From Bacteroidaceae bacterium (GTDB taxonomy: Bacteria; Bacteroidota; Bacteroidia; Bacteroidales; Bacteroidaceae), in contig JAFQBB010000046.1 in the NCBI GenBank assembly GCA_017416805.1, positions 1 to 47,606 of the forward strand: DNA of 47,606 nucleotides, given 5' to 3'. The position numbers were made by a program, and so were the translations under genes. The notes under the pieces were generated by a model. It did not search any database. It was given only the letters and a program-made list of their open reading frames with translations, and was not told the origin of the DNA. Shown piece after piece: positions 1 to 47,194 of this stretch; positions within the stretch are counted from its first letter, which is position 1; each line of letters opens with the position of its first letter.

Positions 1-66
1 CCTAATCCCTAAACCCTAATCCCTAAACCTTCAACCTTCAACCCTAATCCCTAAACCACCAACCCT
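1..66. repeat. Heptanucleotide tandem repeat, CCTAAWC type
   Basis: The window opens with nine consecutive 7-bp units in perfect register (CCTAATC, CCTAAAC, CTTCAAC and a final CACCAAC) followed by CCT, ending directly before the ATG at 67. The array occupies the place of the leader and ribosome binding site of the ABC gene and contains no Shine-Dalgarno sequence. It may extend leftward beyond the window. Confidence 0.85.
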
Positions 67-1512
67 ATGATAAAAATAACCAACGGCATTGCCCGCCATC
101 CGCTTCACCGGATGAAACACCCTATCAATTTTTCTTTAGATACAGGCGAACACATAGCCATTGTAGGCCCTAATGGCGGAGGAAAGAGCGAATTAGTGAA
201 CACCCTGATTGGCAAATACCCATTATTGATGAATGAAGTGGAGTATGACTTCACACCCCGCACCTCAACAATGGCCTTCGAGAATATACGTTACATGGCT
301 TTCCGCGACACGTATGGCGACACAGCCGAAGGAAGCTACTATTACCAACAACGTTGGAATAGCCAAGACGCAGACATCTACCCCACCGTGGCCGAGTTGC
401 TACCCGAAGGAGGCAATCCGGAAATGCGTAGCAAACTCTACAAACTGTTTGGCATAGAGGATTTGCTGGCCAAGACCTCCATCCTGTTATCAAGCGGCGA
501 AATGCGCAAGTTCCACCTGACAAAGGCACTGATTGGCAATCCGCGAGTACTGATATTGGACAACCCGTTCATAGGACTGGATGCCGATACACGCATACAA
601 CTACGCCTGTTGCTTAAGGAGCTGATAAACGAGAGCGATTTGCAACTTATTCTTGTCCTTTCGAAAACGGAAGACATCCCCGAATTCATCACCCACGTAG
701 TGCATGTGGAGCAGATGACCTGCAGCCCCAAGCAGACACTGGAAGAATATCAGAAAAACCTGCAAGCCCAACCTATATATATGTTGGACAAGGAAAAGGA
801 AAAATCCCTGCTTGACCTTCCTGTCCGTACTGACGATATGAAGGCCAATTGCATTGTAAACTTACACAACGTCTCCATCCAATATGGTAGCCGTACAATA
901 TTGAAATCACTTGATTGGACAGTCCACAATGGCGAACGGTGGGCTCTTTCTGGCGAGAACGGAGCAGGAAAATCCACCTTGCTGAGCCTCATCTGTGCCG
1001 ACAATCCGCAATCATACGCCTGCGACATCAGCCTATTTGACAGAAAAAGAGGCACAGGTGAGAGCATTTGGGAAATCAAGAAGCATATAGGCTACGTGTC
1101 GCCCGAAATGCACCGGGCCTACCTGAAAAACCTGCCCGCCATCGACATCGTAGCTTCAGGTTTGCACGACACCATAGGACTGTACCGCCGCACACTACCC
1201 GAACAACAGGAAATGTGCCGGTGGTGGATGAATATTTTCAACATCGCCCATTTGGCAGAGCGCGACTTCCTGACCCTTTCCAGCGGTGAGCAACGTCTGT
1301 GCCTCTTGGCGCGTGCGTTTGTCAAAGACCCCCAATTGCTCATTCTCGACGAACCCCTACACGGATTGGACAACCGAAACGGACAGATGGTAAAAGATAT
1401 AATCAATACTTTCTGCCGCCGTCCGGGAAAGACACTCATCATGGTATCCCACTACGAGGAAGAACTTCCCTCTTGCATCACACACCGTTTGCATCTCAAG
1501 AAACATTCATAA
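67..1512 (+). CDS. Tandem-domain ABC ATPase, ModF-like
   Basis: A 481-residue cytoplasmic protein made of two ABC nucleotide-binding domains with no membrane segment. Domain 1 has Walker A GPNGGGKS (34-41), signature LSSGE (141-145) and Walker B VLILDNP (about 161-167). Domain 2 has GENGAGKS (296-303), LSSGEQR (about 404-410) and LLILDEP (about 424-430). In domain 1 the usual catalytic glutamate after the Walker B aspartate is asparagine, so one composite site is probably impaired in hydrolysis. The size and two-domain layout fit the ModF/PhrA group; the biological substrate is unknown. The ATG follows a repeat array, and no operon partner is visible upstream because the window ends there. 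Confidence 0.82.
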   Translation: MIKITNGIARHPLHRMKHPINFSLDTGEHIAIVGPNGGGKSELVNTLIGKYPLLMNEVEYDFTPRTSTMAFENIRYMAFRDTYGDTAEGSYYYQQRWNSQDADIYPTVAELLPEGGNPEMRSKLYKLFGIEDLLAKTSILLSSGEMRKFHLTKALIGNPRVLILDNPFIGLDADTRIQLRLLLKELINESDLQLILVLSKTEDIPEFITHVVHVEQMTCSPKQTLEEYQKNLQAQPIYMLDKEKEKSLLDLPVRTDDMKANCIVNLHNVSIQYGSRTILKSLDWTVHNGERWALSGENGAGKSTLLSLICADNPQSYACDISLFDRKRGTGESIWEIKKHIGYVSPEMHRAYLKNLPAIDIVASGLHDTIGLYRRTLPEQQEMCRWWMNIFNIAHLAERDFLTLSSGEQRLCLLARAFVKDPQLLILDEPLHGLDNRNGQMVKDIINTFCRRPGKTLIMVSHYEEELPSCITHRLHLKKHS

Positions 1513-1573
1513 CGTGGGTCGGGCTTGGCCTCCATCAGTTTCACTGTCGTTGGGATTTGATTATCAATAGAAG

Positions 1574-1630
1574 AGGGTGTGTCATAATGATGCCTTTTGT
1601 TTTTTCAGGCACGTATTTTTGACACACCCC
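1574..1630. repeat. Inverted-repeat element with GGGTGTGTCA ends, copy 1
   Basis: Arms GGGTGTGTCA (1575-1584) and TGACACACCC (1620-1629) are perfectly complementary across about 35 bases, downstream of the ABC gene. A second element with the same outer sequences and a different interior lies at 28151-28272. It may act as a terminator-like hairpin or be a small non-autonomous mobile element. Confidence 0.6.
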
Positions 1631-1726
1631 CTTCGTATCTTGCGAGGGGAACACAGTGTTAGTGGCCCGAAGGGAGCGCAACAGAGGGGGGGGTAGCAGA
1701 ATCTGAAAGAGGCAATCCGTATCCAC

Positions 1727-1789
1727 AATAAGGGCTTGTACGTCCTTAAAATGCACTAATTCAAAATATTATATGTTTACCGGACACCA
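1727..1789 (+). repeat. Dispersed repeat, copy A
   Basis: This stretch (from AATAAGGGCTTGTACGTCC to TTTACCGGACACCA) aligns by eye, with a few substitutions and a 2-base gap, to the reverse complement of 39304-39373. No reading frame is preserved between the copies, so it looks like a non-coding dispersed repeat. A G8 tract sits just upstream at 1686-1693. Confidence 0.55.
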
Positions 1790-1861
1790 ATATAAAACTA
1801 TTGGCCAATAAACTTTCTTGAACAGTTTCCGACAACTCTGAAATGCCAAAAGGAAAATGAA

Positions 1862-1888
1862 ACATCTCCTGCGAGGAGATGTACAATC
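1862..1888 (+). repeat. Left inverted repeat of invertible capsule promoter
   Basis: This 27-bp sequence is the exact reverse complement of 2022-2048. It is itself nearly palindromic: ACATCTCCT, GCG, AGGAGATGT. The asymmetric centre (GCG here, CGC in the partner) gives the site an orientation. Such paired repeats around capsule promoters in Bacteroides are substrates for site-specific invertases; no recombinase gene lies in this window. Confidence 0.85.
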
Positions 1889-2021
1889 GTATATATATTG
1901 TTGATTAACAATAAGCTACAATTTAAAGAGTTGTTTTTTTTCAGAACAACAGTTTGACTTCTATCAACTATTTGGAAATTTTTCTGTTATAATTAGAAAA
2001 AAAATACTACCTTTGCCCATT
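1889..2021 (+). promoter_or_regulatory. Invertible promoter segment, ON toward upxY
   Basis: The 133 bp between the inverted repeats are AT-rich and carry a perfect Bacteroides -7 element TACCTTTG at 2008-2015, pointing right toward upxY. A weak -33 (TCTG, 1983-1986) lies 21 bp upstream. Transcription should start near 2020-2023, at the edge of the right repeat. Inversion would turn the promoter toward the ABC gene and silence the capsule operon. The orientation in this sequence is ON. Confidence 0.8.
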
Positions 2022-2048
2022 GATTGTACATCTCCTCGCAGGAGATGT
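2022..2048 (+). repeat. Right inverted repeat of invertible capsule promoter
   Basis: Exact reverse complement of 1862-1888. Bases 2028-2048 can fold as a 9-bp stem with a 3-base loop, which would place a hairpin close to the 5' end of the upxY transcript, a few bases upstream of the ribosome binding site. Confidence 0.85.
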
Positions 2049-2051
2049 ATC

Positions 2052-2062
2052 AAAAAGGAGGT
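2052..2062 (+). promoter_or_regulatory. Strong Shine-Dalgarno of upxY
   Basis: AAAAAGGAGGT ends five bases before ATG 2067. Good Shine-Dalgarno matches are uncommon in Bacteroides. This one fixes the start at 2067 rather than at the in-frame ATG at 2013, which lies inside the -7 promoter element. Confidence 0.75.
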
Positions 2063-2066
2063 ATTC

Positions 2067-2747
2067 ATGGAAGCAAAAACCGATGCCCCACATACACATT
2101 CCGTAACGCCAGCCAATGGGACTGACGACCGCGAAGCGCGACCCCAATATTGGGTTGCAGCCTTTGTACAGATACGCAGTGAAAAGGCTGTCGGCAAAAA
2201 ATTGGACGGACTCGGAATTGAAAATTACGTCCCTTCCCAATGGGAATATCACCAATGGAGCGACCGCAAGAAGAAAGTGGAACGGGTAGTCATTCCCATG
2301 ATAGTCTTCATCCATACCGACAAAGCCACCATAAAGCGGTTGGTCACCTATTCCTTTATCAACAAAGTGCTCACCTATCCCGGACAGAGGCCCCCCGCCA
2401 TCATTCCCGACGAGCAGATAGAGAGTCTGAAGTTCATGCTCAAGCAGTCCGATTCGCAGATTGAAATGCACGACCAAGTCTTTAAGACAGGTGAAATGGT
2501 ACGCATCATGCGCGGTCCGTTGAAAGACCTCGAAGGAGAACTTTGCCGCGTACAGGCAGAAAAGCCCATGGTAGCCGTGCAGATAAACTGTTTGGGCTAT
2601 GCCTGCGTCAGCATTGAGAAATCAGACATCAAAGTCATTGCCCGCAAGTCTGAGGAATTCCCCAAAGGAGCAAAATCCACGAAGACACAGAAGACTTCCC
2701 CCGACAAGAAGACAAAGCCCTCCGCATCTCCGTGTACTCCATCATAA
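2067..2747 (+). CDS. upxY: UpxY-family transcription antiterminator
   Basis: A 226-residue NusG-like protein. The NusG N-terminal fold begins at PQYWVAAFVQIRSEKAVGKK and runs through the YVPSQWEYHQW and IPMIVFIHTD segments. A KOW-type domain follows (GEMVRIMRGPLKDLEGELCRV), then a lysine/threonine/serine-rich tail. UpxY proteins are encoded first in Bacteroides capsule operons and bind RNA polymerase to prevent premature termination in the long untranslated leader and operon. Here the gene sits directly behind an invertible promoter. No adjacent upxZ was recognised. The stop codon (2745-2747) lies within the first units of a heptamer repeat array shared with the convergent amidase gene, so the tail length may vary between strains. 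Confidence 0.9.
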   Translation: MEAKTDAPHTHSVTPANGTDDREARPQYWVAAFVQIRSEKAVGKKLDGLGIENYVPSQWEYHQWSDRKKKVERVVIPMIVFIHTDKATIKRLVTYSFINKVLTYPGQRPPAIIPDEQIESLKFMLKQSDSQIEMHDQVFKTGEMVRIMRGPLKDLEGELCRVQAEKPMVAVQINCLGYACVSIEKSDIKVIARKSEEFPKGAKSTKTQKTSPDKKTKPSASPCTPS

Positions 2748-2796
2748 ATCATAATTCATAAATCATAATTCATAATTCATAAATCATAAATCACAA
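2741..2796. repeat. Heptanucleotide tandem repeat, WTCATAA type
   Basis: Eight 7-bp units in perfect register (ATCATAA or TTCATAA, the last ATCACAA). The array covers the convergent junction between upxY and the amidase: upxY stops at 2745-2747 and the amidase stops at 2777-2779, both inside the array. Confidence 0.85.
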
Positions 2797-3181
2797 ATCC
2801 CGGACAATGCGGTTTCCTGTAGTCCAAGTCGCAATGCCCCACCACTAAAACACCCGGATACCGTTTGCGGAGGTCAGCAATCAAGGTCTGCAAGGCTCTC
2901 TTTTGGGCATCTGTGCGTGTGTCAGCAGGAGTCACTCCGTCAGCAGCCAGTCCGCCGACATAACAAATCCCGATAGAGTGTCTGTTATGGTTCCTGCAAT
3001 GTGCCCCCACCATCTCCTCCGCTCTTCCCGCTTCGATAGTGCCGTCCGTAGGAATCACATAGTGGTAGCCGCAACCTTTCCAGCCCCGCAAGCGATGGTC
3101 TCGGTCAATGTCGGCCATCCGCAAGGCACTGCCCGCCTTGTTGGCCGAGCAGTGCACAATGATTAGCGTAATGCGTCTCAT
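2777..3181 (-). CDS. N-acetylmuramoyl-L-alanine amidase, T7 lysozyme-like
   Basis: A 134-residue Amidase_2 / PGRP-fold enzyme that would cut the amide bond between N-acetylmuramic acid and the stem peptide. Likely zinc ligands are the His of IIVHCS near residue 9, the His of VVGHCDL and the Cys of HCPGF near the C-terminus. It has no signal peptide. The last residues (VIYDL) are encoded by the heptamer repeat, so the natural C-terminus appears replaced or shortened. The start overlaps the stop of the smalltalk gene (ATGA at 3178-3181), and the HU gene lies upstream, so the three form one minus-strand unit. This cassette is frequent beside Bacteroides capsule loci; its physiological role is not established. 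Confidence 0.87.
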   Translation of the reverse strand: MRRITLIIVHCSANKAGSALRMADIDRDHRLRGWKGCGYHYVIPTDGTIEAGRAEEMVGAHCRNHNRHSIGICYVGGLAADGVTPADTRTDAQKRALQTLIADLRKRYPGVLVVGHCDLDYRKPHCPGFVIYDL

Positions 3182-3279: not shown

Positions 3280-3349
3280 GCTTTTAGTCTTTAAATAAAC
3301 AATGATTAACAACTTCATAGATTCACAAATTGGTTTCAGTGACGGGTCA

Positions 3350-3392
3350 CTCGCTACTCGTAGCTCGTAGCCCGTCACTCATCACTCATCAC
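3350..3392 (+). repeat. Heptanucleotide tandem repeat, CTNGTAR type, locus 1
   Basis: Six 7-bp units in register (CTCGCTA, CTCGTAG twice, CCCGTCA, CTCATCA twice). The stop codon of the HU gene (3389-3391) is inside the last unit, so slippage could change the HU C-terminus. Confidence 0.8.
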
Positions 3393-3943
3393 AGCGGATT
3401 ACCCTCATCGCCAGCCGATCCCGAGTTACCGGTATTGTCCGAGCCACCGGCATCCGTTGCAGGCTCATCATCAGCAGAGTTTCCACCTTTAGCAGCAGCC
3501 AAGTCAACAGTAGTTTGGCCGGATTTCTCCGCTTTCAGCGTTGCAGCCTGTGCCACACGGCTGGCCACACGGTTGAAGGTCGCCTTGGAAATCATGTTGG
3601 CGAAATCCTCTCCCGGAGTGAATACAAGGTTTACCGCCTTGATATTGTCTTCAGTGAATACCTCCATATTGTCAGCACTTTCGCTGCTTAATGATACAGA
3701 AAAGCTTCCAAGTTCACCCAGATAGACCTTGTTTCCATTAAGGACCTGTTCCACAAGGCGATTACACAGGTCGCTCACAACACCCTTCACAGTTCCACGA
3801 GAGAACACCCCATTGTGGTCGGCCAAGTGGCGTACAAAACGGTCTCCGTCCCACACTTCACGTATTTGAGCCTTAGCATAAGCTCTTTCTCCAGCTTCAG
3901 GTTTCAGATGGTTGGTCTGCAAATAAACAGAATAGTCAATCAT
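3389..3943 (-). CDS. HU family DNA-binding protein with acidic low-complexity tail
   Basis: A 184-residue protein. Residues about 1-125 resemble the Bacteroidales HU-HIG type of HU-like domain: MIDYSVYLQTNHLKPEAG, then FSRGTVKGVVSDLCNRLVE, GNKVYLGELGSFSVSL and VNLVFTPGEDF. After about residue 145 the sequence becomes a Gly/Asp/Ser/Asn-rich disordered tail. It is first in the HU-smalltalk-amidase unit, behind a perfect consensus promoter. It probably binds DNA architecturally; a role in the neighbouring capsule locus is only inferred from position. Confidence 0.85.
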   Translation of the reverse strand: MIDYSVYLQTNHLKPEAGERAYAKAQIREVWDGDRFVRHLADHNGVFSRGTVKGVVSDLCNRLVEQVLNGNKVYLGELGSFSVSLSSESADNMEVFTEDNIKAVNLVFTPGEDFANMISKATFNRVASRVAQAATLKAEKSGQTTVDLAAAKGGNSADDEPATDAGGSDNTGNSGSAGDEGNPL

Positions 3944-4023
3944 ACAATAAAACTTTTTTAATAGTTAAACAATAAATACTTCTTGTCATTTGGATGTTGC
4001 GCGCCTCATCGTTTTTGACAATG

Positions 4024-4113: not shown

Positions 4114-4148
4114 CTATAAGTGACGAGTTACAAGCTACAAGTGACAAG
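4114..4148 (-). repeat. Heptanucleotide tandem repeat, CTNGTAR type, locus 2
   Basis: Five 7-bp units in register, written on the plus strand as CTATAAG, TGACGAG, TTACAAG, CTACAAG and TGACAAG. They are the reverse complement of the CTNGTAR family seen at 3350, 23937 and 47061. Confidence 0.75.
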
Positions 4149-4163
4149 TGGTCAGTAGCTGAA

Positions 4164-4191: not shown

Positions 4192-4192
4192 A

Positions 4193-6794: not shown

Positions 6795-6879
6795 ACAAAT
6801 ATTATTTTGGCACGGAAAAACGTAATGACGATAAAGTATAAGTCCGTGTTAATCCGTGAAATCCGTGCCTGAGAACAAG

Positions 6880-7683
6880 ATGAAAACCATAGTTATCGCC
6901 GCCGGTTATGCCACCCGCCTGGGAGAGCTGACCAAGGACTTCCCCAAACCCCTGTTGAAGATTGGTGACAACACCATCCTCGGCCGCATGTTGGACGACA
7001 TCGACCGCATTCCCGACATTGACGAACACATCATTGTCACCAACCACAAGTTTGCCCCTATCTTCGAAGAGTGGGCCAGCGGGCAGCACTACACCAAGCC
7101 CCTCACCATCATCGACGATGGCACAGAGACCAACGAAACCCGCCTTGGTGCAGTCTGCGATTTGCTGTTGGCAATAGAGTATATAGATAAGGTTCAAAGT
7201 TCAACCCCTCAACCATCCGAAGACCCCAGCACTCAGAATTCAGAATTTATAATTCATAATTCAGGAACCGACCTCCTCGTCGTTGCCGCCGACAACCTCC
7301 TCTTCTTCAGTTTTCAGGAGTTCGTCGATTTCGCCAAGCAGAAGGGAACCAGTTGCATCATGTGCCACGAGCAACCGAGCATTGAGAAACTCCAGCGCAC
7401 CGGTGTCATCGTCATGGACGAGCATAACCGCGTCCTCAATATGGAAGAGAAGCCCCAGCAGCCCAAGAGCCACTGGGCCGTTCCACCTTTTTATATATAT
7501 AGGAAAGAAGACCTCGACCTCGTCCGTCACAGCGTCGAGAACGGATGTGGCAAAGATGCACCCGGCAACCTCGCCCACTACATGGTAGAAAAGACCATGA
7601 TGCACGCCTGGCCCATGTCCGCCGGCCGCTTCGACATCGGCAGTCTCGACACCTACTACGAAGCCTGCGAGAAATTTGGGTGA
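6880..7683 (+). CDS. Sugar-phosphate nucleotidyltransferase with repeat-encoded insert
   Basis: A 267-residue NTP_transferase enzyme that joins a sugar-1-phosphate to a nucleotide. It starts MKTIVIAAGYATRLGELT, the nucleotide-binding loop, and continues FPKPLLKIGDNTILGRML. The metal-binding region is LLVVAADNLLFFS (about 132-144), and MEEKPQQPKSHW is the EKP motif. ATG 6880 is preferred over GTG 6856 because the extension reads through an intergenic GTCCGTG repeat. Residues about 105-129 are encoded by heptamer repeats (7192-7266) placed just before the conserved strand, an in-frame insertion. It acts with the preceding kinase. The nucleotide (UTP, dTTP, CTP or GTP) cannot be told from sequence. 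Confidence 0.82.
   Translation: MKTIVIAAGYATRLGELTKDFPKPLLKIGDNTILGRMLDDIDRIPDIDEHIIVTNHKFAPIFEEWASGQHYTKPLTIIDDGTETNETRLGAVCDLLLAIEYIDKVQSSTPQPSEDPSTQNSEFIIHNSGTDLLVVAADNLLFFSFQEFVDFAKQKGTSCIMCHEQPSIEKLQRTGVIVMDEHNRVLNMEEKPQQPKSHWAVPPFYIYRKEDLDLVRHSVENGCGKDAPGNLAHYMVEKTMMHAWPMSAGRFDIGSLDTYYEACEKFG
7192..7266 (+). repeat. Heptamer repeats inserted in the nucleotidyltransferase gene
   Basis: Two GTTCAAM units (7192-7205), a 26-base spacer, then five units of the TTCATAA family in register (7232-7266). The 75 bp keep the reading frame and encode residues about 105-129, a Ser/Pro/Gln-rich loop. Confidence 0.7.
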
Positions 7684-12968: not shown

Positions 12969-14024
12969 ATGAATAACACGGTATCAATAACTAAAGCTAT
13001 AGGCATATTTTTAATGGTTTTGGGTCACGCAGGACTATGGGACTCTGCACTCAATTATATCGCCATGTTTCATATGCCGCTATTTTTCTTTATGAGCGGA
13101 TATTGCTTTAAAGAGAAATATCTGACAGGCATGAGAACTTTTGTAAAGAAACGAATCACAGGAGTGTGGTGGCCTTATGTAAAGTGGGGAGTTATTTTCC
13201 TTTTGTTTCATAATCTATTTTTTCATTTAAATATATATAGTGATGTAATAGGATTTCAAGGAAAGGTCGAGCATCTCTATTCATGGTCTGAATATTGGAG
13301 TGAGTTCATCGGAATATTGAAAATGCGTGCTCGTGAACCATTATTAGGAGGGTATTGGTTTCTTGCTTCATTATTCTGGGGCAGTATAATATTCTTGTTA
13401 GCACGCAAGTTTATAAATAACAAATGGATACAGGGGGGGGGGATTTTAACTGTTTGCATATTCATGTTTGTGACAAAATGTCAAATTCCATTCTTTGGCG
13501 TTGGAGGCAGAGCCTTTTTAGCCGCATTCTTTATATGGATTGGTGCAGAAATGTCATGTGATAAAAGATTCGTTGCAAGTTTTATCAATAATAGAATCTT
13601 TGCCTTCTTAAGTTTTATTTTTGTTGGAGTTGGTTCTATTTATTGGCATACTTCAATGCCAAAAATGACTACAGAATTAGTTATTCCATATTGTATTACA
13701 GCAGTTCTTGGCACATTGGGAATATATGCAATCAGTAAATGGATTGACAACAAATATGCCAATACGTCGATTGGAAAGTTTCTTTGTTTCACAGGAAATC
13801 ATACACTTGAAATATTAACTTGGCATTTGTTGCTATTTAAAATTGTCAATCTATTGATTGTCTGCATATACAATCTTCCAGAGGAAAATCTCGCTCAGTT
13901 CCCAGTTTATGTAGAATATGCTCGTAAAGGATGGATTGTCCTCTATTTCATTGTAGGCTGCGGAATTCCTTTGGCATGTTGTTGGGTGTATGAGAAAATA
14001 GAGTACAATCGCAGTAAAATATAA
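12969..14024 (+). CDS. Membrane acyltransferase (acyltransferase 3 family) with G10 tract
   Basis: A 351-residue polytopic membrane protein starting MNNTVSITKAIGIFLMVLGH. The early His (VLGH) and the MFHMPLFFFMSGY motif are typical of acyltransferase-3 / OafA / fucose-4-O-acetylase proteins, which transfer acetyl groups to extracytoplasmic glycans. About ten hydrophobic segments follow. ATG 12969 is preferred over TTG 12954. A run of ten G (13433-13442) lies in the middle of the frame, encoding GGG in WIQGGGILTV. In this sequence the frame is open, but slippage by one base would truncate the protein, so it is probably phase-variable. Confidence 0.83.
   Translation: MNNTVSITKAIGIFLMVLGHAGLWDSALNYIAMFHMPLFFFMSGYCFKEKYLTGMRTFVKKRITGVWWPYVKWGVIFLLFHNLFFHLNIYSDVIGFQGKVEHLYSWSEYWSEFIGILKMRAREPLLGGYWFLASLFWGSIIFLLARKFINNKWIQGGGILTVCIFMFVTKCQIPFFGVGGRAFLAAFFIWIGAEMSCDKRFVASFINNRIFAFLSFIFVGVGSIYWHTSMPKMTTELVIPYCITAVLGTLGIYAISKWIDNKYANTSIGKFLCFTGNHTLEILTWHLLLFKIVNLLIVCIYNLPEENLAQFPVYVEYARKGWIVLYFIVGCGIPLACCWVYEKIEYNRSKI
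13433..13442 (+). repeat. G10 homopolymer in coding sequence
   Basis: Ten consecutive G in an AT-rich gene, about 465 bases after the start codon. Tracts of this length slip during replication in many bacteria and act as on/off switches of surface-glycan genes. Confidence 0.85.
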
Positions 14025-17392: not shown

Positions 17393-18455
17393 CTCTTTGG
17401 GTGCCGGAGGTGCCCAAAGACAACTGACTGGATTAGCCTGTTTGCTGAAGGAAAAAGGTTATTCCGTGAAAGTGGCAACTTACTATGACCACCCTTTTTA
17501 TAAGTACCTTTTAGATGAAAATCAGATAGAATATGAATGCTTTAGGGTAAACTCTAAGTTGTGTCTGCCTAAATTGGTGGAATGCATCAAACGCTTCAAA
17601 GCTGATGTAGTGATTTCATTTCAGACAGATCCGAATGCACTGGCATGTATAGCTGCAAAAATCTGTGGAACAAAACTGATAGTATCAGAACGGAACACTC
17701 ATCAAGGAATCACTTGGAAAGACAGGATTATCTTCCAATTGTATAGACTGGCGGACTATGTTGTACCAAATTCTTATTCAGAGAAGAACTTCATTGAAAA
17801 GTATTTTCCGCACCTCAAATCCAAGACACAAACAATTCCTAATTTTGTGGATTTGAAAAGATTCTCGCCAACAGATAGAAAGGAATATAATCAGGGGCTT
17901 CTCATTCTGTCGGTAGCCTCCGTAAAGGCATCAAAAAATACAAAGAACTTTATCAAAGCGTATCATGAGGCTTTTATGAGAGGATGCAGGGCAAAGGTAA
18001 TATGGTATGGAGTAAATCCTAAACAAAATGATCTTGCGATAAACTATGCCTATGCGAATGAATGCCAAGCAATGATAAAAGAACTTGGTATCGAGGATTT
18101 TTTTAAACTGATGCCCAAACGTCAGGATATAGAGAATGCCTATCGCGAAGCGGATATATTTTGCCTGCCTTCTCATTTTGAGGGAACTCCAAATGTCATA
18201 TGCGAAGCTATGGCTTCAGGATTACCTGTAATGGCGAGCAATGTGTGTGACAATCCTCACTTTGTAAAATCAGAAGAAAATGGCTGGTTATTTGACCAAA
18301 ACAATGTACCTGAAATGGCTGATGTAATAGTGAATGCGACAGGAGGAAATTGGGATTTGCAAGCTATGGGAAAAAGAAGCCGGAAGTTTGCAGAAGATTT
18401 GTGTTCTGAAGACATCTTTATTAACAGATACCTCAATTTGATAAAAGCATTATGA
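17367..18455 (+). CDS. Glycosyltransferase family 4
   Basis: A 362-residue GT-B enzyme. The N-terminal glycine-rich loop is LFIDSLGAGGAQRQLTGLA. The middle has PNFVDLKRFSPTDR, and the donor site contains LPSHFEGTPNVICEAMASG, the EX7E motif of GT4 retaining transferases. The 26-base overlap with the polymerase gene and 4-base overlap with the next gene show translational coupling. Confidence 0.9.
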   Translation: MNRILLFIDSLGAGGAQRQLTGLACLLKEKGYSVKVATYYDHPFYKYLLDENQIEYECFRVNSKLCLPKLVECIKRFKADVVISFQTDPNALACIAAKICGTKLIVSERNTHQGITWKDRIIFQLYRLADYVVPNSYSEKNFIEKYFPHLKSKTQTIPNFVDLKRFSPTDRKEYNQGLLILSVASVKASKNTKNFIKAYHEAFMRGCRAKVIWYGVNPKQNDLAINYAYANECQAMIKELGIEDFFKLMPKRQDIENAYREADIFCLPSHFEGTPNVICEAMASGLPVMASNVCDNPHFVKSEENGWLFDQNNVPEMADVIVNATGGNWDLQAMGKRSRKFAEDLCSEDIFINRYLNLIKAL

Positions 18456-19018
18456 TTACCTCACACAAACAAATGAAGGAATACCTCTCCGTAGAGGCAG
18501 AGAAACTGAATATAAAGCATTTTTGGATTCAGTATCTGACGGGGAGTGAATTTGCCACAATCTATTCATACATGTGGATTCTCCGGCATCTCGAATACTA
18601 TATGTTCAAGAAAGAAAAATCGGCTTTATATACACTACCTTATTATCTCTTTTATATTCTGCATCGTCGATGGAGAATTAAAACACAGATACATCTCGGG
18701 CCGCGGGCCGCGGGCTGCGGATTCCATTTGGTACATCTTGGTTTCTTCAGAAGTTATGGTATTACCAAGTTTGGAGAAAACTGCACAGTGCTTCCCATGA
18801 CTCTGTTTGGGAAACGAATTCCAAGTGTTCCAGACAGAGAACAAATTATAGTTGGTGATAATTGCTATTTCGGAACAGGTGTAACAGTATTAGGACCTTG
18901 CAGAATAGGCAACAACGTAACAGTGGCAGCTGGTGCTGTGGTTACAATGAAAGAGATACCGGACAATGCCGTAGTAGCAGGAGTACCGGCAAAAATCATA
19001 AAATACAAAAATGAATGA
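18452..19018 (+). CDS. Serine-acetyltransferase-type O-acetyltransferase with GGGCCGC repeats
   Basis: A 188-residue LbH acetyltransferase of the CysE/WcaB type. It has a helical N-terminus, then GFHLVHLGFF and hexapeptide repeats (VGDNCYFGTGVTVLGPCRIG, GNNVTVAAGAVVTM), and closes AVVAGVPAKII. Within a capsule locus it more likely acetylates a sugar than serine. Residues GPRAAGCG are encoded by three GC-rich heptamers (18698-18720), very unlike the AT-rich surroundings. It overlaps both neighbours by 4 bases (start at 18452, ATGA at 19015). Confidence 0.82.
   Translation: MITSHKQMKEYLSVEAEKLNIKHFWIQYLTGSEFATIYSYMWILRHLEYYMFKKEKSALYTLPYYLFYILHRRWRIKTQIHLGPRAAGCGFHLVHLGFFRSYGITKFGENCTVLPMTLFGKRIPSVPDREQIIVGDNCYFGTGVTVLGPCRIGNNVTVAAGAVVTMKEIPDNAVVAGVPAKIIKYKNE
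18698..18720 (+). repeat. GC-rich heptamer repeat in acetyltransferase gene
   Basis: GGGCCGC, GGGCCGC and GGGCTGC in tandem, followed by GG. This is 7-bp periodic, inside an open frame and far richer in GC than the flanking sequence. Gain or loss of one unit would shift the frame. Confidence 0.75.
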
Positions 19019-23558: not shown

Positions 23559-23714
23559 GAAAAAATGCTCTGCTCCTGAAGTGTCCCCTTTGTTAGTTCG
23601 GGTAAACCCCTCATCAAACTTCGCAGTCTATAAAAAGGCCAATTATGACTTTACATTTACAGTAGCAGCATCAGCTGACTGCAAGAACTCTTTCCCCCCT
23701 TTTTTTTCTTGTTT
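23559..23714. other. Non-coding leader before helicase
   Basis: Sequence between the inverted-repeat element and the helicase start. It ends with a C6-T8 run (23694-23707) seven bases before ATG 23715. The only frame crossing it begins inside the repeat element and was not accepted as a gene. No promoter was identified with confidence. Confidence 0.4.
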
Positions 23715-25994
23715 ATGAATCTTCTTCGTGACTACCAACAGGAGATTGTTTCGCGTGTCCATGAAGCATGGATGCACCACCGCAGTGTGATGGTGCAAAT
23801 GCCTACGGGGACGGGAAAGACGCATGTGCTGGCGGAAGTAGTGAAGGGCCATGAGCTACGAGCTACGAGTGGGAGTGCAGCTACAAGTAATGAGTTACAA
23901 GCTACGAGTAGAAGGGAGTTAATTCCGAATGGCTCACTTGTAGCTCGTAGCTCATCACTTGTAACTAATAAAACCATTCTCATTGTAGCCCATCGCATAG
24001 AGCTGATAGAGCAGATTAAGGAAACGCTTTTGAAATTTAAAATTGAAAGTGAAAAATTAAAAGTTGAATCTATTCAGACTATCTCACGCCGCATTGATTC
24101 CCTTGACCTTAATCCAGACTTGATTGTCATTGATGAAGCTCACCATGCTTTGGCTAAGACTTACAAAATGCTTTGGAAGAAGTGGCCGGAAGCGAGGTTC
24201 TTGGGACTGACAGCTACACCGTGCCGGATGAACCGGAGTGGGTTTACGGATTTGTTTGATACGTTAGTGACTTCGTGGAGCATTGCGGAGTTCATCGAAA
24301 AGGGTGTGCTTTCGGCTTTTGACTATGCATCAATCTATCCCGACAGTGAGGAGCAGAGGCTGATTGACTCTTTGGAAAAGCGAGGGGCAGACGGTGATTA
24401 TCAGGTGAAGGAAATGGACGAGGTGCTGAACAGACGGCCGAGCATTGAGCGACTTTACAGAAGCATGATGCAGTTTGCCGAGGGGAAAAAGGGTATCGTA
24501 TATGCCATCAGCATAGATCATGCGCAACAAATTGCAAATTACTATAAGGAGCAAGGGGTAAAAGCGGTTGCCATTGACAGCCGGACTCCGAGGGAGGAAC
24601 GCAAGCTGTTGGTAAATGACTTCAAGGAGGGGAAAATAGAGGTATTGGTGAATGTGGATATATTCAGTGAGGGTTTTGACTGTCCTGATGTGGAGTTTGT
24701 GCAGATGGCACGACCTACACTATCGCTATCCAAGTACCTGCAACAGGTGGGAAGAGGATTACGGAAAAGTGAAGGAAAGGAAAGCTGCATGATGATAGAC
24801 AATGTGGGGCTTTACCGGATTTTCGGACTGCCTGTAGTGAACAGGAATTGGGAAAGGATGTTCCGTGGAGAGGAATCTGGAAAGGGAGTGCGTGCAAATT
24901 CTGTTGTCAATGAAACGGTATGCTGCACTCGCCAATCTATGGAACAGAGTGAATATGAAACGGGGGTCGGGTTGGTTGTTTCGCACGACGAGTTGTTGTC
25001 AAGGCTCAACGAATGGAAACGGACTCCCGGCATGGAAACCAGAACTGCCAAGTTGAAAGCTTGGCAGGAGAAAGAAACCGGGCTATGGGGGCTAAAACGT
25101 GGCAGATACCAAACGACAGGAGCGGAATATGTCACCGTATTTGACTTGAAGGACGGACTGGCGGCTGTAAGGTTTCGAGGCAATGCATGCGGAATAGTGG
25201 ATGATATGGGAACGGTCATCTGGAGACGGGAAAGCTGTATATCCATGCGGTTCACCCAGAACAAGTTCTTAGTGATAAACTTGAAGGGAGGCGAGGAAAA
25301 CTATGTGGACTTGTACAATCTCAACACTTACAGCAGCAAGCCGGAAATCAAACGGTACGGCAAATTTGAGCTACTGAAAGTGGGACACAAATGCTATACC
25401 CGCACGGAAAGGGTTTATGTGAGCGGAGTGGATTTCACCGGACTTATCGTTACCAACAAGGGAGGGATGCTGAAACTCTATGAATCTCCGGAGCATTCAT
25501 ACTGTATCCTTGATGGAGACAACAAGGGGTATTATCGGTTCCATTATTTGTTGGCGGATGGAAGTATGGTCATTTCAGACTGGAATGGTGATTTTTATCG
25601 GACAGATAAAGGGGGTAAGAAAGTATATATAGGAGAAAAAGAGATCTCCAAAGCTATGCTGGACAAGCAGGTCTGCATGGAGATGGAGACGAACGAGAAA
25701 CGGAAGAGGGAGGAAATATATAAAGAACACCTGCATGCAGTGCCTTACCAATCGGGCCAGAAATGGGGACTGAAAGTTGGCAAACGGATTACCGTCCCAC
25801 CTATCTATCGGAGCATCCGGACGCCTATCGGGAAGTATTGTGCCGTGGAGAAGAACTACAGCCAATGGGGGGTAATCACCATAGACGGCCGGCTATTGAT
25901 TGACACAAAATATCCGGATGTGACCATTGAACAGAATGGTACGGTCTGGCTGACGCAGGTGACAGGAAAGAAAAAGAGGGTGAAACTGGATTGA
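23715..25994 (+). CDS. DEAD/DEAH-box superfamily 2 helicase with WG-like C-terminal repeats
   Basis: A 759-residue protein. Helicase motifs are Walker A MPTGTGKT (29-36), motif Ia ILIVAHRIEL (about 88), DEAH (140-143), TATPCR (motif III) and QVGRGLRKSEGK (motif VI, about 342). The C-terminal 350 residues are unlike typical helicases and contain Trp-Gly blocks (GLWGLKRGRY, QKWGLKVGKR, SQWGVITIDG) resembling WG repeats. Two stretches of the helicase core are encoded by heptamer DNA repeats: residues about 46-85 between motifs I and Ia, and about 106-118. It is likely a nucleic-acid-dependent ATPase, perhaps in repair or RNA metabolism; the substrate is unknown. ATG 23715 is preferred over TTG 23709. 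Confidence 0.85.
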   Translation: MNLLRDYQQEIVSRVHEAWMHHRSVMVQMPTGTGKTHVLAEVVKGHELRATSGSAATSNELQATSRRELIPNGSLVARSSSLVTNKTILIVAHRIELIEQIKETLLKFKIESEKLKVESIQTISRRIDSLDLNPDLIVIDEAHHALAKTYKMLWKKWPEARFLGLTATPCRMNRSGFTDLFDTLVTSWSIAEFIEKGVLSAFDYASIYPDSEEQRLIDSLEKRGADGDYQVKEMDEVLNRRPSIERLYRSMMQFAEGKKGIVYAISIDHAQQIANYYKEQGVKAVAIDSRTPREERKLLVNDFKEGKIEVLVNVDIFSEGFDCPDVEFVQMARPTLSLSKYLQQVGRGLRKSEGKESCMMIDNVGLYRIFGLPVVNRNWERMFRGEESGKGVRANSVVNETVCCTRQSMEQSEYETGVGLVVSHDELLSRLNEWKRTPGMETRTAKLKAWQEKETGLWGLKRGRYQTTGAEYVTVFDLKDGLAAVRFRGNACGIVDDMGTVIWRRESCISMRFTQNKFLVINLKGGEENYVDLYNLNTYSSKPEIKRYGKFELLKVGHKCYTRTERVYVSGVDFTGLIVTNKGGMLKLYESPEHSYCILDGDNKGYYRFHYLLADGSMVISDWNGDFYRTDKGGKKVYIGEKEISKAMLDKQVCMEMETNEKRKREEIYKEHLHAVPYQSGQKWGLKVGKRITVPPIYRSIRTPIGKYCAVEKNYSQWGVITIDGRLLIDTKYPDVTIEQNGTVWLTQVTGKKKRVKLD
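23849..23971. repeat. Inverted heptamer arrays inside helicase gene
   Basis: Units of CTACGAG / TTACAAG type (23849-23908, one short gap in register) are followed by a 28-base spacer and five units of the complementary CTNGTAR type (23937-23971). Segments 23851-23866 and 23940-23955 are perfect 16-bp inverted repeats. The insert encodes an Arg/Ser/Thr/Ala-rich loop between helicase motifs I and Ia and keeps the frame. Confidence 0.8.
24032..24066 (+). repeat. Second heptamer array in helicase gene, AAARTTG type
   Basis: Five 7-bp units in register (GAAATTT, AAAATTG, AAAGTGA, AAAATTA, AAAGTTG). They encode a charged KFKIESEKLKVE segment just after motif Ia. Confidence 0.65.
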
Positions 25995-27968: not shown

Positions 27969-28131
27969 AGTTTCGCAAGCTCAACTTTTTGGAGTTAAAG
28001 GAGTTATCGCAGGCTTTGGCCTGCTAGCCAAATGTATAGCAAAACTATTGGCTCTAACTCCTAGGCTCGAAGAGCCGATAACTCCTTTAACTCCTATAAC
28101 TCCTTCGCAAGTTTCTACTTGCGAAAGTTGA
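27969..28131. repeat. Nested inverted repeats upstream of the ABC-F gene
   Basis: A perfect 19-bp inverted repeat (GGAGTTAAAGGAGTTATCG at 27991-28009; complement at 28076-28094) encloses smaller dyads (TAGCCAAAT / ATTGGCT type). TTCGCAAG / CTTGCGAA segments flank it. AACTCC recurs every 9 bases in the right arm. No gene is present; it may form a large cruciform or RNA structure. Confidence 0.6.
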
Positions 28132-44184: not shown

Positions 44185-44186
44185 TT

Positions 44187-45305
44187 ATGAAAAGACTATA
44201 TATAATAGGTATAGCAGCCCTCATGGGGTGCTATACCTTTGCACAAGAGAAGATACAGGTACAGGAACCGGGATTCAAGGTGTTCCAGTTCCCACGGAAT
44301 GCCATCCCTTGCATCGACGGTTCGTTTGCCGACTGGGACATCGTGCCCGACAGCTATGCCGTAGGTATAGAAGAGATGTGGGACGACACGAAGAAGCATA
44401 CCGGCATCGACCGTTCGACACTCGACATCACCGTGAAAGTGGGATGGGTAGAAGGGCTCAACCGCCTCTATTTCCTCTACGAGGCGTACGACAACTATTG
44501 GGAATTCGACCAGCTGGGACTTCGCAACGACACGTATGAAATCGTGGTGGATGCCGACCTTTCAGGAGGTCCCCATACTGACGAGTTCCGCCTCAACCCC
44601 GAAGTGATGACACGCATGGATGCCTTCTTCGAGTTCCAGAACATACATGCCCAGAACTACCACATCATGACACCCCCCACCGAAGGCAAGTCATGGACCA
44701 TGGTATGGGGCACCCAGCAATGGCTCAAGTATCTGCCATACGCCAACTATGCCTACGACTTCAACTTCAGCCACGGAGAGAGTGGCAAGCTGCGCATGGA
44801 GTTCTACATCACCCCCTTCGACTTTGCCAGTCCCGAAGGTCCGGCCAAATCTACCGAGAGCCGTCTCTATGAGAACAAGAAGATTGGTCTCTGCTGGGCT
44901 GTGATTGACTACGATGGTGGAGACGACAAGGACGGTTTCTGGAACCTCTCGAAGCATCACCATGTGTATGGCAATGCCTCCATGCAACGCCTGTTTACCC
45001 TGATGCCTCTTGAGAAGCAGTTCCGCAAGCCGGTGGAGTGCGACTGGACATTCACTGTAGTGCCCGACACACGCACCGTCTGCTTCCGCGATGAGAGCTA
45101 CGGCAATATCACCTCATGGCATTGGGACTTTGGCGACGGCACAACCTCAAACGAGCAACACCCCGTACACACCTATGCACGCGACAATGCCCACTACGTG
45201 GTGACCCTCTACGTGGAAGGCCCCGAAGGGAAAGCCCGCAATTGTAAGGTTTGGGAAGTGTGTGTGCGCGACTTGAAGAATCCGTCGAACACACCTTATG
45301 ATTGA
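44187..45305 (+). CDS. Secreted PKD-domain protein with CBM9-like N-terminal domain
   Basis: A 372-residue secreted protein. The signal peptide is MKRLYIIGIAALMGCYTFAQ. The main domain (IPCIDGSFADWDIVPDSYAV, then VGWVEGLNRLYFLYEAYDNY) has the CBM9 / DOMON-like pattern of a sugar-binding beta-sandwich. The C-terminal 80 residues form a PKD domain (SWHWDFGDGTTSNEQHPVHT). No catalytic motif was found. The role is probably glycan binding or presentation for the cluster. The ATG is chosen over TTG 44181. Confidence 0.78.
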   Translation: MKRLYIIGIAALMGCYTFAQEKIQVQEPGFKVFQFPRNAIPCIDGSFADWDIVPDSYAVGIEEMWDDTKKHTGIDRSTLDITVKVGWVEGLNRLYFLYEAYDNYWEFDQLGLRNDTYEIVVDADLSGGPHTDEFRLNPEVMTRMDAFFEFQNIHAQNYHIMTPPTEGKSWTMVWGTQQWLKYLPYANYAYDFNFSHGESGKLRMEFYITPFDFASPEGPAKSTESRLYENKKIGLCWAVIDYDGGDDKDGFWNLSKHHHVYGNASMQRLFTLMPLEKQFRKPVECDWTFTVVPDTRTVCFRDESYGNITSWHWDFGDGTTSNEQHPVHTYARDNAHYVVTLYVEGPEGKARNCKVWEVCVRDLKNPSNTPYD

Positions 45306-45385
45306 AATTTTCAGACACGGATTTTTCGCTTTGCTCAAGGGAACTCCACGGATAAATTATTATTAGTTCCGATAAAATTGCCACC

Positions 45386-45509
45386 ATACATTTTTCATCC
45401 GCAGATGACGCGGATAACGCGGATTTTTATTTTTATTCTCTTTGCTTTATCGTACCGGATGGTAATATCTACCTGCGTTATCTGCGCTATCTGCGGATGA
45501 AAAATGTAT
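45386..45509. repeat. Large hairpin element of the CGCGGAT family
   Basis: Arms 45386-45406 and 45489-45509 pair over 21 bp without mismatch. Pairing continues inward (GCGGATAACGCGG with CTGCGTTATCTGC), giving a stem near 37 bp. The interior resembles 28172-28244. It lies between two convergent genes and may end transcription from both. Confidence 0.7.
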
Positions 45510-45518
45510 TTCTCAGAA

Positions 45519-46961
45519 CTACTCCTTATTCAGCGCCTCAGCAATGATTTCCGCCATACGGCGTGCCCCGTCCCCATTGGGATGGATGCCGTCGGAAAGC
45601 ATTTTGTCGCCATCGCCGGCAAACAGTGTGTGGAGGTCAATCACCTGCAGGCCATACTCGCCGGCCACCTCCTGCTGGACAGGGATAATGCCATTCACAA
45701 TGACCGAATCGTTGATATTCCACGTCTGCTTGAATGCAGGGATGGGTGTGCAGAGGAATATCTTGGTTTTCACTCCGGCCAAAGCCTTGGCTCTTTTTTT
45801 CTTATTCTTAGGCAATGCCGCCAGTTCAGGACAAAGGGTAGTAACCATCTGCACCAGATCCTGCTTGAACTCCGCACCATGTTGCCAGTTTCCGGGTTTG
45901 GAATCGTTCGTACCTAACTTGATGATGGCTATGTCCGGACGGAAAGCCACCGCATCGCGCCAGGCCAATTCGTTCATGTACGGATGGTCACCCTTGTTCA
46001 ACATCGTGCGGGCACTCACGCCGAAATTCTTCACCCAATACTTCTCTCCCAACTTTTGTTGCAACAAGGCCGGATAGCCATGCTGGGTAGCCATGTCTAT
46101 GCCGTGACCGTCGGTAATGCTGTTGCCGATGCAGGCCACACGGATAGCATCGGGGGCAGGCATCGGCCGATTGTCCAACCAATGTCCGAGGTCGGCCATC
46201 AACTGGTCGTGATGCTTGAACCAGGTGCCAAATCCGAAGCCATGGTCACCCGAGGGATAGACGTGCATCGTACACTCATTGCCCGAATTGCGCATGGCCT
46301 TGTAATACTCCAATCCATTCGTCACAAAAGGCACCAGCCGATCATCGCTGGCCGTGATGATGAGAGCCGGCGGAGTCAAGTGGCGGCGCACCGCATTCTG
46401 GGTTGAAAACTGGCGCACCAATTCCTTGTCCTTCTGCCCTTCCCTACCCAAGAAGTTCCGGCAAGAATATTTGTGTGTCACCCGTTCGTCCATCGAAATC
46501 ACGGGATAGAACAAGATGCTGAAGTCCGGGCGCACATCAAACTCCGAATGAGTGGAGATGACCGAGGCCAGATGACCTCCGGCCGAGAAACCCATAATGC
46601 CCACATCGCGCGGATGGATGCCCCACACAGCAGCCGAATCGCGCACCGTGCGTATAGCCTTCTGCACATCGCCCACAGGCAGGGAGCGGTCACCATGAGG
46701 CAGCCTGTAGTTCACCACAAAGTAGGCAATCCCCCGCCCATTCATCCAGCCGGAAGCCTCATACCCCTCATGCGTGTTCGACAACATGGAATATCCACCT
46801 CCCGGAACACCCACAATGGCCCTTCCCGACGGCTTTTCGGGCAAGTAACACACCATCTGTGCCTTCCCGTCATCGGTAAGGTCAATCGTAAACTTTCTCG
46901 CAGTCTGTGCCTGTGCCGTGACAACGCATAGCAACAAGACGAAAAATGCAATCTTCTTCAT
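45519..46961 (-). CDS. Two-domain carbohydrate esterase: alpha/beta hydrolase plus SGNH
   Basis: A 480-residue secreted protein with signal peptide MKKIAFFVLLLCVVTAQAQ. Domain 1 (about 20-275) is an alpha/beta hydrolase with oxyanion VPGGGY, nucleophile GFSAGG, Asp in ASDDRLVP and His in SGDHGFGFG. Domain 2 (about 290-480) is SGNH with GNSITDGHG, LGTNDS and DGIHPNGDG. Both sets of catalytic residues are complete, so it may remove two kinds of ester, such as acetyl groups at different positions of plant glycans. ATG 46961 is preferred over 47015, which lies upstream of the promoter. Confidence 0.85.
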   Translation of the reverse strand: MKKIAFFVLLLCVVTAQAQTARKFTIDLTDDGKAQMVCYLPEKPSGRAIVGVPGGGYSMLSNTHEGYEASGWMNGRGIAYFVVNYRLPHGDRSLPVGDVQKAIRTVRDSAAVWGIHPRDVGIMGFSAGGHLASVISTHSEFDVRPDFSILFYPVISMDERVTHKYSCRNFLGREGQKDKELVRQFSTQNAVRRHLTPPALIITASDDRLVPFVTNGLEYYKAMRNSGNECTMHVYPSGDHGFGFGTWFKHHDQLMADLGHWLDNRPMPAPDAIRVACIGNSITDGHGIDMATQHGYPALLQQKLGEKYWVKNFGVSARTMLNKGDHPYMNELAWRDAVAFRPDIAIIKLGTNDSKPGNWQHGAEFKQDLVQMVTTLCPELAALPKNKKKRAKALAGVKTKIFLCTPIPAFKQTWNINDSVIVNGIIPVQQEVAGEYGLQVIDLHTLFAGDGDKMLSDGIHPNGDGARRMAEIIAEALNKE

Positions 46962-46986
46962 ATCAAGATATTGATTAAACGTGGGG

Positions 46987-46994
46987 CAAAGGTA
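46987..46994 (-). promoter_or_regulatory. -7 element of the esterase gene
   Basis: On the minus strand TACCTTTG, a full TAnnTTTG match, 25 bases before ATG 46961. A TTG lies about 18 bp upstream as a possible -33. Confidence 0.65.
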
Positions 46995-47060
46995 AACAAA
47001 ATCTATAACGCACAATAATTTTTACCCCAATAATTACTTCAAACGTAACCTCACTCACCA

Positions 47061-47194
47061 CTTGCAGCTTGTAACTTGTAGCTAGTAGCTCGTAACTTGT
47101 AGCTAGTCACTTGTAACTCGTAGCTTGTAGCTTGTAGCTCGTAGCTCGTAACTCGTAACTTGTAGCTCGTAACTTGTAGCTCGTAACTAGTAAC
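47061..47194 (+). repeat. Nineteen-unit heptanucleotide array, CTNGTAR
   Basis: Nineteen 7-bp units in perfect register from 47061 to 47193 (variants CTTGTAG, CTCGTAA, CTAGTAG, CTCGTAG and others), followed by C. Position 3 varies freely among T, C and A; position 7 is A or G. It lies about 65 bp upstream of the esterase promoter. It is the longest example of the family in this window. Confidence 0.92.

Follow-up and report, generated by a model that had tools for sequence, protein, structure and literature searches.

The 47,606-bp stretch of DNA considered here, hereafter the window (G000:C14:1-47606), belongs to a Bacteroidaceae genome (G000) of 3,156,927 bp in 64 contigs that is 91% complete, and it raises the question of why one bacterial contig should carry so many short tandem repeats whose units differ in sequence from place to place while commonly sharing a length of seven base pairs. 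A preliminary description of the window attributed this to a genome-wide mechanism that acts on unit length. Comparison with further contigs of the same genome, with sister species and with plasmids of other phyla makes it moderately probable, in our estimate, that some of the arrays (in this genus between about a quarter and a half, under a strict test) are the arms of intergenic hairpin elements, presumably mobile, which resemble the intervening sequences (IVSs) of 23S ribosomal RNA (rRNA) and in some copies enclose a gene of the PF05635 (S23) family.

The arrays themselves are clearly in excess of expectation. In the window, ten lag-7 segments reach a score of at least 10, against a mean of 0.3 in ten second-order Markov simulations, and the remaining lags between 4 and 12 give none at this score apart from lag 9 (three) and lag 12 (one); period 7 likewise accounts for 13 of the 33 rows returned by Tandem Repeats Finder. 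A genome sample of 447,606 bp (about 14% of the genome) was assembled from the window and 400 kb of contigs C3, C46 and C63, which were picked by length, the presence of the CTNGTAR unit in C3 being known beforehand. It contains 27 arrays at lag 7, six at lag 8 and nine at lag 9, where simulations give practically none, together with 14 at the harmonic lag 14 and zero or one at every other lag from 4 to 15; contigs C46 and C63 alone (240 kb) contribute nine, two and two arrays at lags 7, 8 and 9. The relatives (80 named loci of Bacteroidaceae and their kin plus one G000 locus, 1.50 Mb in all) yield 52, 13 and 17 arrays, respectively. These simulations rule out chance or low complexity as the source of the arrays, and with head-to-tail units of 5-11 bp exceeding chance they can be classed as long simple sequence repeats or heptamer microsatellites. 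The genome-wide lag-7 excess proposed in the preliminary description is thus borne out by autocorrelation, as is the coexistence of several unit families at this lag, which recurs in relatives with other units. At all ten places that it listed lag 7 scores highest among lags 4-12; the registers there are in phase rather than exact, as the units vary, with lag-7 scores of only 0.68 at three of them (starting at 4114, 23937 and 24032) and a lag-6 score of 0.62 at 24032-24066. The unit length is not always seven, given the 9-bp arrays that pair as hairpins at two places in the window (Table 1) and the 8-bp arrays elsewhere in the genome, and the GGGCCGC stretch at 18698-18718, which in contrast to the others is GC-rich and lies inside a Pfam-supported acetyltransferase open reading frame (ORF, 18452-19018), is better not regarded as a member.

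The arrays lie chiefly outside genes, often starting from a stop codon. A crude gene caller, which called 83% of the sampled DNA coding and overlooked a gene at 18697, placed 17 of the 27 lag-7 arrays of the genome sample between genes, seven at gene ends and three within genes; corrected for the overlooked gene, 23 of the 27 fall outside genes or at gene ends and four inside, and at least six start no more than 10 bp from a called gene end. Array density per 100 kb is 6.0 in G000, 7.9 in G012, 10.0 in G005 (40 kb), 7.5 in G080 (a different genus) and 2.0 in G008, and no arrays were detected in G003 (180 kb), G001 (40 kb) or G019 (200 kb). The stretches of G012, G005, G003, G001 and G080 came from contigs named by earlier hits, so that sampling was not blind, and for G012 and G080 these were repeat hits, which inflates their densities. 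The array habit is patchy, even inside the genus.

Each genome carries few unit families, with each family occupying many loci and being present in some sister species and absent from others. Two consecutive CTNGTAR units occur 306 times in G000, against a single occurrence of the reversed control pattern; among the 14 sister species searched the two highest counts are 116 and 60, G004 and G009 have one each, and G001, G003, G008 and G010 have none. By chance the reversed control pattern matched another family, RATGNTC, with 445 and 151 occurrences in a pair of genomes from another genus. The earlier contention that length is acted upon, rather than one sequence being spread, accordingly stands in part: length 7 dominates across families, and the units have been dispersed as well. 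In the genus g17 heptamer stretches were seen within longer dispersed repeats (G080; L253:18690-18930; L254:8640-8790, 13000-13040 and 17840-17945), the G080 examples being a 34-bp CAATAACC array that recurs identically at four places and, likewise at four places, a 27-bp TCTTAAC array.

A further regularity, absent from the preliminary description like the link to PF05635 discussed below, is the way in which arrays pair. Neighbouring CTNGTAR arrays on opposite strands, pooled over picked and unpicked loci, are oriented outward in 21 cases and inward in none; for neighbours no more than 80 bp apart in the G000 sample the counts are six and zero (three and zero in C46 and C63 alone), and in the G012 contigs, which were chosen from the match list, seven and zero. 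The core between such CTNGTAR arms measures 8-46 bp. In a strict test demanding an exact inverted copy of at least 10 nt within 130 bp of the array, a partner was found for 11 of 41 arrays in G000, nine of 19 in G012, two of four in G005 and 12 of 66 in the named loci. Arrays lacking one could represent solo arms or elements of another kind, or they may have arisen separately by plain slippage. The cores differ between copies, so that a single mobile element with a fixed core was not borne out, although one core, CCATGCGGCAC, recurs, with 27 copies in the G000 genome against two of a control. An array of period 7, 8 or 9 lies within about 125 bp of 24 of these 27 copies (a count given without a chance level, in which two pairs of copies each occupy a single stretch); because CCATGCGGCAC adjoins 7-, 8- and 9-bp arrays, arrays of unlike unit length share parts. 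Among the sister species it is most frequent in ones that bear CTNGTAR as well, with 41 copies in G012, 17 each in G002 and G014, 12 in G011 and 11 in G005, against zero to four in the other nine.

In some copies the core is replaced by a gene. In the prfA-pyrF gap of G000 outward-facing CTNGTAR arms enclose a 130-codon gene whose product matches PF05635 (E 2.5e-40) and also the four-helix-bundle family TIGR02436; against the model of the retroelement protein Avd the G000 PF05635 protein scores 48.2 bits, under the cut-off of 80. This arrangement was evaluated across the order by comparing the 220-bp flanks of each gene as inverted repeats, with flanks taken from different loci as the null and an arm-score cut-off of 13, the 99th percentile of 798 cross-locus pairs. 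The cut-off was exceeded at 21 of 30 PF05635 loci in a first set (the best locus from each of 30 genomes, all retained by the profile search) and at 15 of 20 further loci that were selected before their flanks were viewed. L336, which lacks a right flank, was scored as a miss. Among controls that were not size-matched to the PF05635 genes, the corresponding figures are 14 of 830 for long ORFs of the named loci and six of 271 for called G000 genes, some of them beside hairpins (Fisher p of 4e-26 and 2e-16 for the two sets, and 2e-10 for the plasmid set described below). The IVS hallmark of an inverted terminal stem with a PF05635 ORF in its loop is therefore seen at 36 of 50 Bacteroidales loci, three of which (L343, L347 and L349, in the second set) represent one orthologous insertion. 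The arms are mostly tandem arrays that vary by copy, commonly of 7 bp and otherwise of 8, 9 or 10 bp (13 bp in one); the three PF05635 copies found in G000 have arms of 7-bp (C46), 9-bp (C61) and 8-bp (C19) units. The copies whose surroundings were read, a part of the total, lie between protein genes rather than inside a 23S rRNA helix, and because of this we term them IVS-like instead of IVSs. No PF05635 gene was found in the 80 named loci, which therefore offer no named chromosomal test of the arms.

Gene-less and gene-bearing copies are connected by sequence. The right arm of the gene-less hairpin at 27991-28105 of the window agrees with the left arm of the C61 PF05635 copy at 62 of 65 bp, and the agreement takes in the non-repeated inner stem. 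The arm families of the three G000 copies occur at 3.8-4.7 places per 100 kb in G000 itself, versus 0-1.0 in G003, G008, G019 and G080. Likewise, the AATGGTC arms of the PF05635 copy of G030 belong to a dispersed family of its genus, their 12-mers being found at seven places in 400 kb of the congener G080, at four in G000 and at none in five other samples.

The association extends beyond the Bacteroidales. A protein search of a plasmid collection returned 46 records with PF05635 genes, chiefly from Nostoc and other cyanobacteria, and 15 of the 22 that were fetched exceed the arm-score cut-off (10 of a first 16 and five of six chosen for breadth, L366 and L367 being near-identical), compared with two of 73 other genes on two plasmid stretches, one of which neighbours a PF05635 gene. 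The hosts above the cut-off (Nostoc, Calothrix, Anabaena, Pseudanabaena, Picosynechococcus, Riemerella, Treponema saccharophilum, Azospirillum and Gemmatirosa) span five phyla. Of the lower-scoring loci, L368, L369, L371 and L373 have arrays on both sides, whereas 8-bp arrays occur at L385, a single array at L370 and none at L377. The sites include the interval between cas6 and cas4 in Pseudanabaena, that between cas10 and a Cmr3-family gene in Picosynechococcus, and a position before sufB in Riemerella; S23-family genes with repeat arms were observed amid CRISPR genes on the cyanobacterial plasmids at L364, L365 and L376.

Taken together, these features point to an element that consists of two short tandem arrays of like kind, inverted relative to each other, with a core between them. 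The array units are mostly 7 bp long, less often 8, 9 or 10, and the core is either a stretch of some 8-46 bp or a gene, about 120 codons long, that encodes a PF05635 four-helix-bundle protein, as in the selfish IVSs of 23S rRNA. Gene-less copies would be the commoner, non-autonomous form. By whatever route it moves, the element would be copied into transcribed gaps, where the transcript would fold and RNase III would cut the element out, as in IVSs, thereby keeping the host operon working. Whole-unit slippage could then lengthen, shorten and blend the arms, and because both arms hold the same unit the stem might re-pair in any register. PF05635 proteins resemble Avd (PMC10053308), a likeness which suggests reverse transcription as a possible copying route. 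A wider and rather unlikely extension of this reading, which we offer tentatively, is that the 7-10 bp repeats of several phyla, including the cyanobacterial and Bacteroidales arrays, are largely eroded or gene-less members of a single class of selfish element built on RNA structure; in such a class the S23/IVS protein, as a relative of Avd, would bind the hairpin RNA and recruit a reverse transcriptase by which the hairpin is copied into further gaps, with unit turnover changing the arm sequence while the hairpin persists. Three puzzles, namely the frequency of heptamers in some bacteria, the nature of S23/four-helix-bundle genes outside rRNA, and the origin of the rRNA IVSs, may on the IVS-like reading be one. 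A simple test can be applied to any complete genome by asking whether its PF05635 genes lie between inverted 7-8 bp arrays.

Several observations weigh against the IVS-like reading. For the majority of arrays no clear inverted partner exists; in G080, from another genus, the strict test finds one for none of 33. Within one CTNGTAR hairpin the two arms resemble each other no more than do arms of separate hairpins (p 0.28), so that an origin of arms as fresh mirror copies was not borne out. Stretches centred on CCATGCGGCAC fold about like other intergenic midpoints (z below -3 in 30% versus 32%, medians of -2.2 versus -1.3), and extra folding around this core was discarded as a candidate feature given so little difference. 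The arrays do not prefer co-directional gaps, which account for 13 of 22 array-bearing gaps versus 158 of 231 of all gaps longer than 20 bp. Only three PF05635 genes stand beside hundreds of repeats in G000, while G003 has a PF05635 gene with good arms yet no arrays in 180 kb. Arms taken from the G005 and G010 copies recur in G000 as well, with 2.9-3.8 places per 100 kb, and because of this the match of arms to their own genome is partly genus-wide. The C19 element, with 8-bp arms, has the same gene pair, arms and unit number in three sister species (L343, L347, L349), with no visible slippage or movement, in contrast to the slots whose hairpins were exchanged, and no insertion event was seen anywhere, target duplication not having been systematically looked for. 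When the null for the first 16 plasmid loci is formed across these loci themselves, which inflates it because arm families are shared, seven reach p <0.05. In the literature, the authors of the Coxiella IVS study consider its S23 protein unlikely to be produced and attach more importance to the RNA (PMC4990558), and for Nostoc PCC 7120 few inverted pairs, and no such repeats on plasmids, were reported (Rehm 2015, PMC4692102).

The strongest competing account is plain replication slippage in 7-bp steps, by which arrays would be born locally from chance seeds with no element needed; the underlying idea is of a polymerase holding about seven bases (Mrazek 2007 as cited in PMC4679880 and PMC4692102). 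We regard it as possible, if doubtful. It would readily account for the dominance of length 7 over unrelated unit families and lineages, for the partnerless majority and the wholly unpaired arrays of G080, for the repeated blocks within the longest array (L190), and for a unit number that varies by strain in the Coxiella IVS. Local birth nevertheless fails to explain 306 CTNGTAR pairs in G000 against none in four of 14 sister species, the variation of the same unit positions at many loci, or a pairing that is exclusively outward, and the core common to 7-, 8- and 9-bp arrays and the link to PF05635 are equally foreign to it.

A different perspective is offered by gaps in which hairpins occupy one slot with unrelated sequence across sister species. 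Of 30 fetched loci, 20 were scored for the gap that separates pyrF from an HD-domain gene, the script missing the HD gene in nine of the 20; in G015 and G016 it is visible by eye, with a short gap and no arms. This slot holds a CTNGTAR hairpin in G000, hairpins built on ACGGATTAC in G002, G014, G013 and G011 (with a spacing of 9-10 bp by eye and weak periodicity by script), an 8-bp type hairpin, CACAGAGA, in G006 and G005, and a short plain one in G004. Inverted-repeat scores in G000 and these seven sister species are 12-22.5, and the pyrF of the seven is 97-100% identical to that of G000; the slots of G001 (44 bp), G009 (62 bp) and G017 (17 bp) have no arms. The RNA fold z is -9.2 in G000, -10.9 in G002, -10.5 in G006, -6.5 in G014 and -5.8 in G004, against -2.2 in the armless G001. 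A similar hairpin shape is thus present in this slot despite wholly different sequence. In the G014 and G013 slots (L286, L287) an extra piece, TTTTTCGCT..GCTCAAGGGAACTCCAC, is inserted in either arm of the ACGGATTAC hairpins, and a piece resembling it also lies near the esterase gene of the window. Inserts that differ between genomes also occur within a gene: of 15 genomes with a homologue of the nucleotidyltransferase of the window, 11 have no insert in one loop and four have one, each different. G000 has heptamers there, G005 an array of 8-bp units, G002 a palindrome and G012 another sequence. The G002 palindrome (L127) is GC-rich, CCCTCCCTCACAGGGAGGG, and is read in frame.

Such conservation of shape would be expected if the hairpins were functional RNA structures involved in processing, pausing or insulation within operons, selected rather than mobile, with the sequence free to change by array growth. 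In addition to the sharing of one slot, between co-directional genes, by hairpins of unrelated sequence, this proposal can draw on the transcription of most of the similar repeats of Xanthomonas (Rehm 2015, PMC4692102). We nonetheless consider it improbable: other genomes manage with armless slots of 17, 44 and 62 bp or, like G003, without any array over the stretch sampled, arrays overall show no preference for co-directional gaps, the same families occur inside genes, and the arms are common to PF05635 elements.

The remaining two proposals survive less well. In 176 CTNGTAR units of G000 deviations number zero at position 1, three at position 2 and one at position 5, 21 and 10 at positions 4 and 6, and 51 and 79 at positions 3 and 7, the variation being biased toward positions 3 and 7 by the 15 of 30 runs that came from loci picked with the pattern. 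Near-invariant positions 1, 2 and 5 beside loose positions 3 and 7 could reflect binding sites for a DNA- or RNA-binding protein that fixes some positions and leaves others free, an explanation to which we assign very little probability, because families turn over between sister species and shared descent of dispersed units accounts equally for the fixed positions. Scarcely any credence can be given to repetitive extragenic palindromic (REP) or miniature inverted-repeat (MITE)-type elements moved by a Y1 (REP-associated tyrosine, RAYT) transposase, since, palindromic, intergenic, dispersed and split into gene-bearing and gene-less forms as the elements are, a PF01797 search that was positive in five of 14 named control genomes found no match in G000 (91% complete), and the arms are tandem arrays that differ between copies.

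The arrays and hairpins of the window are collected in Table 1.

Table 1. Tandem arrays and hairpin structures along the 47,606-bp window
Feature	Position	Strand	Context
Period-7 array CCTAATC/CCTAAAC	1..57	+	contig end; ABC-ATPase ORF 67-1512 directly after; inverted partner not seen
Period-7 array ATCATAA/TTCATAA	2741..2799	+	source of the stop codon of UpxY-family antiterminator ORF 2013-2747; extends into end of reverse ORF 2777-3181
CTNGTAR-family period-7 array (CTCGTAG, CTCATCA)	3357..3392	+	
CTNGTAR-family array	4118..4150	-	flanks ORF 3389-3943 together with 3357-3392, inward orientation
Period-7 array TTCATAA/TTCACAA	4162..4191	+	
Period-7 array, in frame	7233..7264	+	nucleotidyltransferase ORF 6856-7683; encodes part of a loop insert missing in 11/15 genomes with homologue
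GGGCCGC x3.4	18697..18720	+	in acetyltransferase ORF; doubtful member, probably coding coincidence
CTNGTAR heptamer hairpin	23853..23971	left arm -, right arm +, core between	in frame in RadD-like helicase ORF 23709-25994; DNA fold z -4.55
Weak period-7 stretch	24033..24062	+	same helicase ORF 23709-25994; G002 relative has another repeat-like stretch there (by eye)
ORF-less hairpin, 9-bp-unit arms GGAGTTAAA / TAACTCCTT	27991..28105		
Hairpin, 9-bp-unit arms CGCGGATAA / CTATCTGCG	45400..45495		past 3' end of AxeA1-family esterase gene (45519-47015, minus)
Longest array, 19 CTNGTAR units	47061..47194	+	upstream of esterase gene 45519-47015

As regards phase variation, in which repeats in or before surface genes switch the reading frame, the two cases noted are both read in frame, one in the helicase and one in the nucleotidyltransferase gene. 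The helicase hairpin falls between what we take to be the Walker A motif and the motif following it, and at the same helicase loop a homologue from another genus (L120, G023) has a heptamer-like ATTCACA/ATGCATA stretch. The first 57 positions of the contig carry CCCTAAT/CCCTAAA repeats, most likely marking an assembly break in a repeat; motifs of this type are those of plant-type telomeres, which is a coincidence here. The ORF at 3389-3943 appears HU-like by eye, and the CTNGTAR arrays flanking it face inward, the reverse of the usual close pairs. The 600 bp upstream of the esterase homologues of G014, G005, G012 and G011 contain no CTNGTAR array; G014 and G011 carry other period-7 arrays there, and the neighbour genes differ. 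No Rfam family reaches its gathering score anywhere in the window. The closest named loci are from metagenome-assembled genomes (MAGs) of ruminant-gut Bacteroidaceae, with 77-80% amino-acid identity in the one gene compared. Two MAGs titled Clostridium sp. and Roseburia sp. (L065, L068) include contigs bearing a gene 62-63% identical to the Bacteroidaceae protein, and these titles are perhaps wrong. Caution is warranted for low-complexity in-frame inserts and for array copy numbers in draft assemblies.

Paludibacter propionicigenes is a member of the Bacteroidales. TAACTGA direct repeats have been described from five Bacteroidetes including this species (MacGregor 2015, PMC4679880), an account that touches the Bacteroidales, for which the preliminary description knew of no equivalent. 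Like the arrays studied here, these are intergenic, lineage-specific heptamers (Beggiatoaceae, Cyanobacteria and Bacteroidetes), the differences between two Cyanothece strains being mostly 7-nt indels; they differ in comprising one unit in direct copies, with one inverted case, and were proposed to be translation regulators. In most genomes, long repeat units are more often heptanucleotides than any other class (Mrazek 2007 as cited in PMC4679880). The GGGNATC repeats of Xanthomonas and Nostoc (Rehm 2015, PMC4692102) are similar in their 7-bp period, intergenic excess and proximity to stop or start codons, and two oppositely oriented sites lie close by in 70 and 75 cases in two Xanthomonas genomes (PMC4692102); unlike our reading, they were proposed to form quadruplexes, generally without association with mobile elements. 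The literature hence already records an excess of heptamers, units specific to lineages, a bias toward intergenic DNA, and inverted pairs (PMC4679880, PMC4692102). The terms "S23" and "four helix" are absent from the main text of both papers, as is "intervening sequence" from that of MacGregor 2015 (PMC4679880).

S23 genes in rRNA IVSs are old knowledge; in a literature search that left out most subscription journals, no account was found of S23-family genes between short tandem-repeat arms outside rRNA. The STRR (short tandemly repeated repetitive) sequences of heterocystous cyanobacteria are 7-bp tandem repeats. In the present analysis PF05635 genes on plasmids of such cyanobacteria were often flanked by 7-bp arrays, and no account pairing STRR repeats with a gene turned up in the literature accessible to the search. 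The Rickettsia palindromic elements are palindromic repeats read in frame within genes, a property shared by some of the structures described above, and are not known to have tandem arms.

A close parallel is the IVS of Coxiella burnetii, whose ends form a 28-bp stem and which RNase III removes; next to its S23 gene stand tandem heptamers, three or two depending on the strain (PMC4990558). The inverted terminal stem and the S23 ORF in the loop are common to both systems, and the Coxiella IVS has been termed selfish, with an expendable gene (PMC4990558); unlike it, the elements considered here lie between protein genes, have stems made of tandem arrays with copy-specific units, and are dominated by gene-less copies.

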